Source of the DNA: Anaerolineae bacterium
GTDB taxonomy: Bacteria; Chloroflexota; Anaerolineae; DTLA01
Length of the DNA stretch: 39,616 nt
Direction of reading: 5' to 3'
Assembly: GCA_029907165.1 (NCBI GenBank)
Contig: JARYMK010000006.1
Span: 1-39,616 of the forward strand
In this document: one piece after another, positions 2,595 to 6,971 of the stretch
Position numbering within the stretch: the first letter of the stretch is position 1
How the letters are laid out: each line of letters begins with the position of its first letter
The notes under the pieces: model-generated
The model's input: the letters and a program-made list of their open reading frames with translations, nothing else
The model's database searches: none
Told to the model about the DNA's origin: nothing
Translations under genes and position numbers: made by a program

Positions 2595-2623
2595 TTGCCG
2601 CGCCGATAGTCCTACGCTATAAT
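2595..2623 (+). promoter_or_regulatory. Sigma70-like promoter for the 2663/3065/4764 operon
   Basis: TTGCCG-N17-TATAAT, 40 nt upstream of the ATG at 2663. Confidence 0.65.
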
Positions 2624-2662
2624 GACATCACGGTACCGAATCCCGCCACAAGGAGGCAGGAC

Positions 2663-3031
2663 ATGTCCGCTGGGAAGATTATCGGCTACATCTTCGCCGG
2701 AATCGCCATCCTGTTCGGCGTTCTGTTCCTCATCGCCGCTTTTGACGGCAGGCCCGTCGCCCAGGCTATCAGCAACTTCATCATCGCGGCCGTGCTCATC
2801 GGCATCGGCGTGGTCATCATCATCGCCATCAAAATGCGTGAACCGAAGCCGAAACAGGAGATCATCCAAAAGATTGACGTGTCGGGCGAGATCGCCATGG
2901 AGCGCCTGAAATGCAAGAACTGCGGCGCTCTTCTGGACAAGGACAGCATCAAACTGGCCGAGGGCGCCGTCGTCATCTCGTGCCCCTACTGCGGCACAAC
3001 GTACCAAATGGTAGAAGAACCGAAGTGGTAG
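2663..3031 (+). CDS. Small membrane protein with C-terminal zinc ribbon
   Basis: 122 aa; two hydrophobic helices (IIGYIFAGIAILFGVLFLIAA, FIIAAVLIGIGVVIIIAI) then CKNCGALL...CPYCGTTY. GGAGGCAGG upstream of the ATG. Confidence 0.8.
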   Translation: MSAGKIIGYIFAGIAILFGVLFLIAAFDGRPVAQAISNFIIAAVLIGIGVVIIIAIKMREPKPKQEIIQKIDVSGEIAMERLKCKNCGALLDKDSIKLAEGAVVISCPYCGTTYQMVEEPKW

Positions 3032-3064
3032 CCGACCCCGTCGGCTGAGTCTGGAGGTTGGCCC

Positions 3065-4762
3065 ATGCGAACTGGCCCGAAATGGATATTACGAGTCGCG
3101 CTCGTCATCCTGGCGGTTGTCCTCGTCGCGGTCCCTGCCGCCGCGCAGGACTACCGTTTCCGGGTGAACGAGCGGCTCGTCCATGTGTACATCAACGACG
3201 ACGGCTCCATCTGGATTGACTACACCATCACCTTCACCGCCGATCCGGGGTCGCACCCCATAGACATCGTGGACATCGGCCTGCCCAACTACGACTACAA
3301 CCTGGCCGAGGTCAAGGCCGATGTGGGTGGCGTGGAGATCAAGGACATCCGCCATTCGGAGTATGTGAAGCCCGGTGTGGAAATCCACATGGGCAAGTTC
3401 ACCATCCCGCCTGGCGGCACCGGCACGCTCCACGTCCTGGCGCGGGTGCGGAACATGGTCTTCCAGGACACCTCGGACCCCAACTATGCCAGCATGGAGT
3501 TCATCCCGCACTGGTACGATAGCGCCAACGCCCACGGGACGATGCACCTGGAAATCGTGGTGCATTTCCCGGAGGGCGTAACCAGCGAGGAATCCCGCTA
3601 TCACGATACCAAGTTCACCGACGCTGCCATCGTGGACAATCGGGTAACCTACGCCTGGATATATCCCGATGCCTCGCCCAGCCGACCGTACAAGGTGGGC
3701 GTCTCCTTCCCCAAGAAGTACCTCAAGAGCGGAGTTGAACTGAAGGTAACGCCCGAACCGCTGCCCCCCGCCGCGGGCGGAACCGACATCACCGACATCC
3801 TTTGCAGCGGGCCGATGTGCGTCATCCTGGGCATCCTGGGGTTCATCGCGTTCATCGTCCTCAGCACCCGCGGAGCCAACGTCCGCAAGATGAAGTACCT
3901 GCCGCCGGCGGTGGGCGTGGAGGGCGCGGGCGTGAAGCGCGGCCTCACCGCGGTGGAGGCGGCCCTCCTCTTGGAAGCGCCCCTGAACCGCGTCCTGACC
4001 ATGATCCTGTTCGGCCTGTTGAAGAAGGGCGCGGTTACCGTGTTGTCCGACAATCCGCTGCGCTTGCAGGCCAACGTACCCGCCCCCGAGGACTTGCGCG
4101 ACTACGAAAAGAAGTTTCTCGCGTCCATCGTGGACGACCAACTAGACGAGAAGAAACTCCGTCAGATGATGGTCGGCCTGGTCAAATCGGTGAACGAGAA
4201 GATGAAAGGGTTCAGCCGCAAGGACTCCGTGGCCTACTACAAGGACCTGGTCAGCCGAGCCTGGCAACAGGTGGAAGCCGCCGAGACGCCGGAGGTGAAG
4301 GCGCAACGGCTGGACGACGGGCTGGAGTGGACCATGCTGGACGACGACTGGAACAAGAAGGTGGGGCGCACCTTCGGCGACGAGCCGGTGCTCCTGCCCC
4401 GCTGGTGGGGCTACTACCGTCCCTGGGCCACCAGCACGAGCACCGCGTCGGGCGGCACGCAGACGGTTTCCACGCCCCGAACGGCCACGGGCGACGCGGG
4501 CCGCACCCCAACCATGCCCACCCTGCCGGGCGCGGCCTTCGCCAACACCATCGTGTCGGGCGTGGAGAGCCTGTCCAACCGCGTCGTGTCCAGCGTGGAG
4601 AGGTTCACGGGCAGCATCTCGTCGGTAACCAACCCGCCGCCCCCACCGCCCAGAACCAGCAGCAGCGGGCGCTGGAGAAGCGGCGGCGGTGGCGGTTGCG
4701 CTTGCGCGTGTGCATGCGCCTGCGCGGGCTGCGCCTGCGCGTGCGCGGGAGGAGGCCGCTAG
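3065..4762 (+). CDS. DUF2207-like secreted/membrane protein with Cys-Ala-rich C-terminal tail
   Basis: Signal peptide, N-terminal extracytoplasmic beta-rich region, central TM (CVILGILGFIAFIVLS), and terminal SGGGGGCACACACACAGCACACAGGGR. Family assignment from architecture only. Confidence 0.75.
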   Translation: MRTGPKWILRVALVILAVVLVAVPAAAQDYRFRVNERLVHVYINDDGSIWIDYTITFTADPGSHPIDIVDIGLPNYDYNLAEVKADVGGVEIKDIRHSEYVKPGVEIHMGKFTIPPGGTGTLHVLARVRNMVFQDTSDPNYASMEFIPHWYDSANAHGTMHLEIVVHFPEGVTSEESRYHDTKFTDAAIVDNRVTYAWIYPDASPSRPYKVGVSFPKKYLKSGVELKVTPEPLPPAAGGTDITDILCSGPMCVILGILGFIAFIVLSTRGANVRKMKYLPPAVGVEGAGVKRGLTAVEAALLLEAPLNRVLTMILFGLLKKGAVTVLSDNPLRLQANVPAPEDLRDYEKKFLASIVDDQLDEKKLRQMMVGLVKSVNEKMKGFSRKDSVAYYKDLVSRAWQQVEAAETPEVKAQRLDDGLEWTMLDDDWNKKVGRTFGDEPVLLPRWWGYYRPWATSTSTASGGTQTVSTPRTATGDAGRTPTMPTLPGAAFANTIVSGVESLSNRVVSSVERFTGSISSVTNPPPPPPRTSSSGRWRSGGGGGCACACACACAGCACACAGGGR

Positions 4763-4763
4763 C

Positions 4764-6131
4764 ATGGGCATCGTAGATAGAATCCGCGATTGGTTCACGC
4801 CGCAGAAGCCGCTCCAGAGGGGCATCTACCACTACCGATCGCCCGCGGGCCAGGAGGAGCGGTTCCGCCTGCACCTGCGCGTGGAGGAGGATGGGCGCGG
4901 CATCCTGGTCATCAATGCCGCCAAGGTGCTGCACCTCAATCAGACAGCCACCGAGCACGCCCGCCTCATCCTGCAGGAGAAGTCGCCCGAAGAGGCCGTC
5001 CGCGAGATCACTCGCCGCTACCGCGTCAGCAAGGAGCAGGCCCGCAAGGACTACGAGAGCCTGCGTGACACGATTCTGACCATGACGCGCACCGATGACG
5101 TGTGCCCCATCACGTACCTGGACGTGGAGCGGATTGACCCGTTCAAGACGCCGGTTTCGGCTCCATACCGCATGGACCTGGCACTCACGTACCGGTGCAA
5201 CGACGACTGTCCCCACTGCTACGTGGCCCGCGACCGCAACTTCCCCGAGATGCCCACCGAATCGTGGAAGCGCGTTATTGACCGGCTGTGGGACATCGGC
5301 GTGCCCCACGTAACCTTCACCGGCGGTGAGGCCACCCTGCGCAGCGACCTGCCGGAACTCATCCAGTACGCCGAGGACGTGGGCCTGGTAACCGGCCTGC
5401 TCACCAACGGGCGCAAACTGGCGGACAAAGCGTACCTGCAGCGCCTGCTGGACGCCGGCCTGGACCACATCCAGATCACGCTAGAATCCCACGACGAGGC
5501 GATCCACAACAAGATGGTGGGGTGCTCCGGCGCGTGGGCCGAGACCGTGGCGGGCATCGCCAACGCCGTCGCCGCCGATGTGTACGTCATCACCAACACG
5601 ACCCTCACCCATGACAACGTCCCCACCATTGAGGACACAATAGACTTTTTGGCCGAACTGGGCATCCGCACTTTCGCGTGCAACGGCATGATCTACTCGG
5701 GCAGGGGAAAGGTGGTGGGCACCGGCTTCACCGAGGCCGAGTTGCAGGACATCGTCCTGCGCGTGAAGGACGCTGCGGCGCGGAATGGAATGCGCCTCAT
5801 CTGGTACACGCCCACCCAGTACTGCGAACTGGACCCCATCAAACTGGAACTGGGCATCAAGACGTGCACCGCCGCCGAGTTCAACATGTGCGTGGAGCCC
5901 AACGGCGACGTGATCCCGTGCCAGAGTTACTACAAGTCCCTGGGCAACATCCTCACCGATGACTGGCACTCCATCTGGAACCACGAGACGGCCCGCTGCC
6001 TGCGCGACCGCACCTGGATTCCGGAGAAATGCAAGGATTGCCCGGACCTGGACCTGTGCGGCGGGGGCTGTCCCCTGTACGTGGAGGAGCACGCCTACCG
6101 CTGCCTGGATACCCAGTCCAACGCGGTGTGA
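4764..6131 (+). CDS. PqqD-like (RRE) radical SAM/SPASM protein
   Basis: Start taken as ATG 4764 (SD GGGAGGAGG), not the track's 4689. PqqD-like region HLNQTATEHARLILQEKSPEEAVREITRRYRVSKEQARKDYESL; radical SAM motif CNDDCPHC; TGGEATLRSDL; SPASM Cys cluster CVEPNGDVIPCQSYYKSLGN...CKDCPDLDLCGGGCPLY. Confidence 0.92.
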   Translation: MGIVDRIRDWFTPQKPLQRGIYHYRSPAGQEERFRLHLRVEEDGRGILVINAAKVLHLNQTATEHARLILQEKSPEEAVREITRRYRVSKEQARKDYESLRDTILTMTRTDDVCPITYLDVERIDPFKTPVSAPYRMDLALTYRCNDDCPHCYVARDRNFPEMPTESWKRVIDRLWDIGVPHVTFTGGEATLRSDLPELIQYAEDVGLVTGLLTNGRKLADKAYLQRLLDAGLDHIQITLESHDEAIHNKMVGCSGAWAETVAGIANAVAADVYVITNTTLTHDNVPTIEDTIDFLAELGIRTFACNGMIYSGRGKVVGTGFTEAELQDIVLRVKDAAARNGMRLIWYTPTQYCELDPIKLELGIKTCTAAEFNMCVEPNGDVIPCQSYYKSLGNILTDDWHSIWNHETARCLRDRTWIPEKCKDCPDLDLCGGGCPLYVEEHAYRCLDTQSNAV

Positions 6132-6221: not shown

Positions 6222-6971
6222 ATGGAGCCAGCCCTGACTCCGGCCGAGTGGGCCGAACACTTCCGGCGGCAGGCCGAATGGACCCGCGCGGCGCGGAATT
6301 ACCTGTACCGCCGCGCCGACCTACTGCGCGCCCGCCGCGTGCTGGACGTGGGCTGCGGCACGGGCGTCATCACCGAGGAGATGGCGGCGCGGACGCGGGG
6401 CCGCGTCGTGGGCCTGGACATCAACCCCCAGTTTCTGCGCCTCCGCGAAGGGCGCGGGGCAGACTACATCCTCGGCGGCGCGCTCTGTCTCCCTTTCGCC
6501 AGCGGCGCGTTTGATGTGGTGGTTTGCCACTTTGTGCTCATGTGGCTGCGCGACCCTCGGCGGGGCATGGCAGAGATGGTGCGCGTAACCCGCGCGGGCG
6601 GTTGGGTGCTTCTCTGCGCCGAGCCAGACTACGGCGCGCGGTTGGACTACCCCGACCTGCCCCACGCGGCATGGCACATTGAGGCGCTGCGGCGCGAGGG
6701 CGCCGATCCGTTCATGGGGCGCAAACTGCGCGCCTTGTGCGCCGAGCAGGGATTGGGTGCCGAGGTTGGTTGCCTGTCCGCGCCGTGGACGGCCGAAGCC
6801 ATCCGCGATTCGCTGGACGGCGAATGGGCGATGCTGACCCGCATCACGCGCGAATTCGTGGGCGAAAACGAGCGGCGTGCGGTGCGGGCGCGAGAGGAAG
6901 TCGCCATCGCCCGCGGCGAGCGGTTCGTGTTCATGCCGGTCTTCTACGCGGCGGCGCGAGTTCCCGGTTGA
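6222..6971 (+). CDS. Class I SAM-dependent methyltransferase
   Basis: VLDVGCGTGVITEEMA...GLDIN...FDVVVCHFVLMWLRDP motifs. Confidence 0.9.
   Translation: MEPALTPAEWAEHFRRQAEWTRAARNYLYRRADLLRARRVLDVGCGTGVITEEMAARTRGRVVGLDINPQFLRLREGRGADYILGGALCLPFASGAFDVVVCHFVLMWLRDPRRGMAEMVRVTRAGGWVLLCAEPDYGARLDYPDLPHAAWHIEALRREGADPFMGRKLRALCAEQGLGAEVGCLSAPWTAEAIRDSLDGEWAMLTRITREFVGENERRAVRAREEVAIARGERFVFMPVFYAAARVPG

Follow-up and report, generated by a model that had tools for sequence, protein, structure and literature searches.

Organization of the locus

The window, which is the whole stretch of 39,616 nucleotides of Anaerolineae DNA that was analysed, contains the following features:

2595..2623, + strand: putative sigma-70-like promoter (TTGCCG-17-TATAAT), a consensus match only
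2663..3031, + strand: small protein with two transmembrane segments (TM) and, at its C-terminus, a zinc-ribbon-like CxxC...CxxC; 57 of the 80 F1 loci have a homologue, a large number of these loci being cut by contig ends
3065..4762, + strand: membrane protein with a Cys tail, 565 aa (sequence, TM prediction, AF2)
4523..4642, + strand: leader-like segment, residues 487-526 of the membrane protein (LPGAAFA...TNPPP), kept in relatives; putative recognition role
4697..4759, + strand: Cys tail (CA)5-G-(CA)3-GGGR, invariant; proposed substrate
4764..6131, + strand: PqqD (RRE)-radical SAM (CNDDCPHC)-SPASM enzyme (Pfam, AF2)
6222..6971, + strand: SAM methyltransferase of class I (UbiE-like); a homologue accompanies the system in 51 of the same 80, often contig-cut, F1 loci

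The membrane protein gene ends in a TAG stop at 4760-4762 and the enzyme gene starts with an ATG at 4764, leaving the gap of one nucleotide already reported in a sequence-only reading of this DNA. A TATAAT promoter and a small membrane zinc-ribbon gene had also been placed upstream; both were seen, although all the zinc-ribbon models scored below cut-off for the 2663-3031 product. The promoter-like site matched the consensus at 10 of 12 positions, and two such sites were seen vs 0.5 expected from shuffles. On the - strand, two adjoining genes at 687-2512, divergent from the tail and enzyme genes, were by eye similar to a pseudouridine-5'-phosphate glycosidase and a PfkB-type sugar kinase.

The membrane protein and its Cys tail

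In agreement with the signal peptide and central TM described earlier, the 3065-4762 protein has an N-terminal hydrophobic signal or anchor at residues 8-26 and a further single TM at 248-266 (TM prediction; about 248-276 when annotated as a feature). Basic residues follow this TM and, together with the layout of a signal and one TM, predict that the C-terminal part is cytoplasmic; the AF2 model, with an extracytoplasmic beta domain (residues 32-216) and a helical cytoplasmic part, is likewise consistent with the cytoplasmic tail proposed before. Only generic beta-domain matches (oligosaccharyltransferase subunits and M1 peptidase N-domains) were obtained in the fold search. The protein had been called DUF2207-like, a name that the window protein itself did not bear out: neither Pfam DUF2207 nor NCBIfam gave any match, even at E 0.1, and among 26 F1 members none matched PF09972 and one showed a weak DUF2207_C; kinship to DUF2207-like proteins was seen only via intermediates. 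Within the cytoplasmic part, the block EGAGVKRGLTAVEAA at residues 286-300 (window 3920-3964) was about 90% conserved, far above its surroundings.

The protein ends in ...SGGGGG-CACACACACAG-CACACA-GGGR, exactly as the tail had been read; its eight cysteines, formerly assigned to the last 20 residues, span the last 21 (seven in the last 20). Of the 396 class genomes surveyed with a DNA pattern for (CA)3G(CA)3, in which the GGGR end was not included, 65 had the tail (34 of 222 genera, 13 families), and the reversed-pattern control was negative in all 396. In every readable case GGGR followed directly after the pattern and closed the protein. The repeat numbers, counted on ORFs that were not de-duplicated, were mainly 4+3 (n = 33), 3+4 (n = 24) and 5+3 (n = 9), the others having 2-3 plus 3-4. 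Codon usage within the tail varied (TGC or TGT, all the Ala codons and all six Arg codons) at constant residues, indicating that the protein sequence of the tail is under selection and ruling out a low-complexity or repeat artefact.

An alignment of 26 rows (31-52% identity), most of them picked through the tail pattern, showed 100% conservation of the last ten residues and about 40% of the Gly/Ser spacer before the tail. Independently of the pattern, a profile built without the tail was used to recover F1 orthologues, and all those with an intact and readable C-terminus after de-duplication (n = 77/77) carried the tail, which was thus not missing from orthologues of the membrane protein. An apparent tail-less orthologue, L063, was rejected, since its frame was broken around an ambiguous base and the tail lay on the neighbouring ORF. 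Another candidate, L104 (990-4409, G048:C353), is a Ser/Thr kinase-AAA-TPR-like protein, encoded upstream of a radical SAM gene, whose C-terminus corresponds to residues 422-565 of the membrane protein, including the Cys tail. It was not used as proof of a portable tail, because its similarity to kinases gives way abruptly, near residue 988, to similarity with the membrane protein, and the draft genome holds several such kinases; a gene fusion and a misassembly cannot be told apart here.

The PqqD-radical SAM-SPASM enzyme

All three domains attributed to the 4764-6131 product scored above the Pfam cut-offs: PqqD (PF05402, 29.6 vs 23.4 bits), Radical_SAM (PF04055, 90.1 vs 29.5 bits) and SPASM (PF13186, 41.2 vs 21.5 bits). 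The CX3CX2C residues C145, C149 and C152 were invariant in 12 of 12 sequences; the SPASM cysteines C376, C386, C423, C426, C432 and C436 were also invariant. In the AF2 model (mean pLDDT 76, 12 sequences) the PqqD-like region consists of strands followed by three helices, and the top structural matches were SkfB (E 4e-15) and SuiB (E 6e-15), with anSME structures also among the fold matches; the PDB profile search gave SkfB (102 bits), PqqE (100 bits) and SuiB (66 bits). No NCBIfam model came near its cut-off, the best being PqqE (TIGR02109, 145 vs 381 bits), and a catalogued radical SAM family beside Cys-rich proteins, which the sequence-only reading had held to be possible, was therefore not recovered.

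Co-occurrence of tail and enzyme

The F1 enzyme was detected with the A1 enzyme profile, run on 392 of the 396 class genomes, in 71 genomes, and 62 of 63 tail-bearing genomes had it (Fisher p = 4e-61, a descriptive, uncalibrated value that ignores shared ancestry). In G345 the tail and a pseudo-rSAM were present and the active enzyme was not found. Nine genomes were enzyme-only by the pattern: five (G056, G107, G146, G367 and G372) had a shorter tail variant next door, G127 had a variant on another contig and in G359 the membrane-protein homologue was truncated at a contig end, while in G006 (85% complete) and G156 (68% complete) neither tail nor membrane protein was found. With seven of the nine explained in this way, a Cys-tailed partner is not commonly missing from genomes with the enzyme. 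Wherever tail and enzyme shared a contig they were on the same strand (n = 81/81 loci, both systems counted), with the tail gene first in 69. The enzyme gene was unlinked from the tail gene throughout family f5 and in part of clade B; the dedicated partner is encoded either nearby or elsewhere in the genome. The coupling of tail and enzyme is strongly supported, and the pair is a recurrent system, not a one-off.

Most clade A genomes carried an additional PqqD-bearing radical SAM paralogue lacking CX3CX2C and the SPASM cysteines (L058:8509-9663, L024:3827-4975 and L098:3963-5276 are examples of paralogues without CX3CX2C), and clade B had a separate one, in which CX3CX2C was lost and SPASM-type cysteines were kept. 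The genome of the window and its close relatives had no separate pseudo-rSAM, the active enzyme being the sole match, indicating that the paralogue is not essential. A catalytically dead paralogue could be a partner or accessory subunit; for thuricin CD, two radical SAM enzymes are described as acting jointly (PMC12093266). At L153 (G190:C35:2595-3743), a pseudo-rSAM was observed in a 97% complete genome in which the active enzyme and the tail protein were not found.

A second, parallel system

A second system, F2, comprises a DUF2207/TIGR04222-like protein with a Cys tail of about 50 residues (ACHS repeat, Cys and His alternating) ending, for example, in VSRF, whose gene lies directly before its own PqqD-rSAM gene. 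The F2 enzyme is related to the F1 enzyme (about 303-356 bits with the A1 profile), and all the intact, de-duplicated F2 orthologues recovered with a tail-less profile carried the Cys tail (n = 29/29). Unlike the window protein, F2 proteins do approach or reach DUF2207: 12 of 16 relatives matched PF09972, one of them at 25.2 vs 24.4 bits, and the match to TIGR04222 was weak (34.2 bits, cut-off 43). F2 loci were accompanied by a two-TM zinc-ribbon-like gene (n = 32/35) and a coiled-coil-like gene (n = 34/35), examples being L177:9861-10352 and, without a Pfam match, L178:3681-4826, respectively. On three F2 contigs, DUF2207-like paralogues with Gly tails were Cys-free and had no adjacent enzyme of the PqqD-rSAM kind, providing an internal control for the coupling. 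In the phylum sample, G405 was the only genome outside the class with either system, and it had both.

Proposed modification of the tail and alternative explanations

Co-occurrence within one class (Anaerolineae-like) points to a hitherto undescribed tail-modifying system, and the gene pair is rather probably a protein-maturation system in which the enzyme modifies the tail of the membrane protein. The tail is likely the substrate of the enzyme, mainly because the nearest folds, SkfB and SuiB, belong to peptide-modifying RRE-rSAM-SPASM enzymes; it counts against this reading that the known thioether substrates of radical SAM-SPASM enzymes are mostly short peptides. The lineages with unlinked genes, and the genomes G006, G156, G345 and G190 with their missing partners, also weigh against it. 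Cysteine has a slightly better than even chance of being the modified residue. A thioether would be the likeliest product, since characterised Cys-rich partners of RRE-rSAM-SPASM enzymes end up as thioethers, yet taken by itself this product is somewhat doubtful.

In the mechanism proposed, the PqqD-like N-terminus of the enzyme would bind approximately residues 487-526, just before the tail, in the cytoplasm, and the radical SAM/SPASM part would modify the tail's Cys-Ala repeats. Several intramolecular, sactionine-like Cys thioethers would be formed, perhaps with Ala as acceptor, and the modified tail would remain on the membrane protein as a rigid or a metal- or redox-active cytoplasmic element. 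The recognition segment and the biological role are weak parts of this scheme, and may be otherwise. It is conceivable, at somewhat less than an even chance, that proteins are covalently modified here in a way that forms a class of its own, a cytoplasmic (Cys-Ala)n tail being turned by the radical SAM enzyme into a permanently anchored cross-linked or metal-binding ladder, with an ACHS version that arose in parallel within the same class of bacteria and possibly, in many lineages, a dead-paralogue accessory subunit. Radical SAM RiPP enzymes are usually seen as makers of small peptide natural products, and if the proposal is true they would extend to the standing modification of a large membrane protein. 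The substrate, CACACA...GGGR, would be very simple and nearly invariant, and open to direct testing and engineering.

The tail might instead escape covalent modification and bind metal, FeS or heme or have a redox role, the enzyme using it as a docking or cluster-donating partner while its own substrate is another one, perhaps in a small-molecule pathway with the methyltransferase. The Cys-rich character of the tails, the Cys/His alternation of the F2 repeat (ACHS), which suits metal binding, and the zinc-ribbon-like and methyltransferase genes in the neighbourhood are compatible with such a role, whereas the PqqD/RRE domain suggests that the substrate is a peptide or a protein, peptide maturases have the nearest folds and no part of the membrane protein is more constant than the tail; this explanation was considered unlikely. 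Less credit still was given to the membrane protein as an oversized precursor, whose tail would be modified and then cleaved off to give a small ribosomal peptide product. A C-terminal core placed after a spacer and a leader-like segment, with the spacer variable and the core fixed, resembles such an arrangement, but no conserved protease or exporter was apparent among the conserved neighbours, conservation spans the whole membrane protein and not the leader alone, and natural-product cores are usually more variable than this tail.

Finally, tail and enzyme could be neighbours by inheritance, without a functional link. Both are restricted almost entirely to a single class, and part of the co-occurrence therefore stems from common ancestry. 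That it would account for the association altogether is nevertheless very improbable, given the match in 62 of 63 genomes with many absences in between, the retention of the pair in at least 13 families, even with changed gene order or unlinked genes, and the existence of two distinct kinds of tail with a separate radical SAM enzyme for each.

Relation to known systems

A literature search centred on sources other than subscription journals returned no paper on this pairing of tail and enzyme. The proposed maturation system shares the RRE, radical SAM and SPASM architecture and fold with the sactisynthases SkfB (PMC6231123), AlbA and CteB and with SuiB and PqqE, as well as a Cys-rich partner encoded beside the enzyme. 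It differs from them in sequence, the structural match showing an identity of about 20%, and from sactipeptide systems (reviewed in PMC8172795) in that the partner is a membrane protein of 565 residues and not a short ribosomal precursor peptide. A radical SAM/SPASM enzyme is also found in the ACGX system (TIGR04340), on whose model (cut-off 400 bits) the window enzyme scored 64 bits, and for which no published chemistry was found in the literature search. The name ACGX refers to an Ala-Cys-containing repeat, the putative substrate there. SPASM enzymes can act on whole proteins rather than on small peptides, as anaerobic sulfatase maturase does, and in this respect the latter resembles the system proposed; unlike the window enzyme, it modifies a single internal residue, without a PqqD domain or a Cys-repeat tail.

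The nearest parallel, described in PMC12452194, pairs MNIO (DUF692) enzymes and membrane proteins of the TIGR04222 family: the proteins have C-terminal Cys-rich tails, predicted to be periplasmic, are often encoded beside MNIO enzymes and are suggested there as substrates, with the chemistry left undefined. Both systems combine a membrane protein, a low-complexity C-terminal Cys tail and an adjoining RiPP-type enzyme, which would make DUF2207/TIGR04222-like membrane proteins with enzyme-modified Cys tails a recurring theme, with MNIO enzymes taking part in other bacteria, and the pairing would provide a handle on the role of these widespread proteins. In contrast to the TIGR04222 systems, TIGR04222 did not match the window protein, the enzyme is a PqqD-radical SAM-SPASM protein instead of MNIO, and the tail, consisting strictly of CA or ACHS repeats, is predicted to be cytoplasmic.
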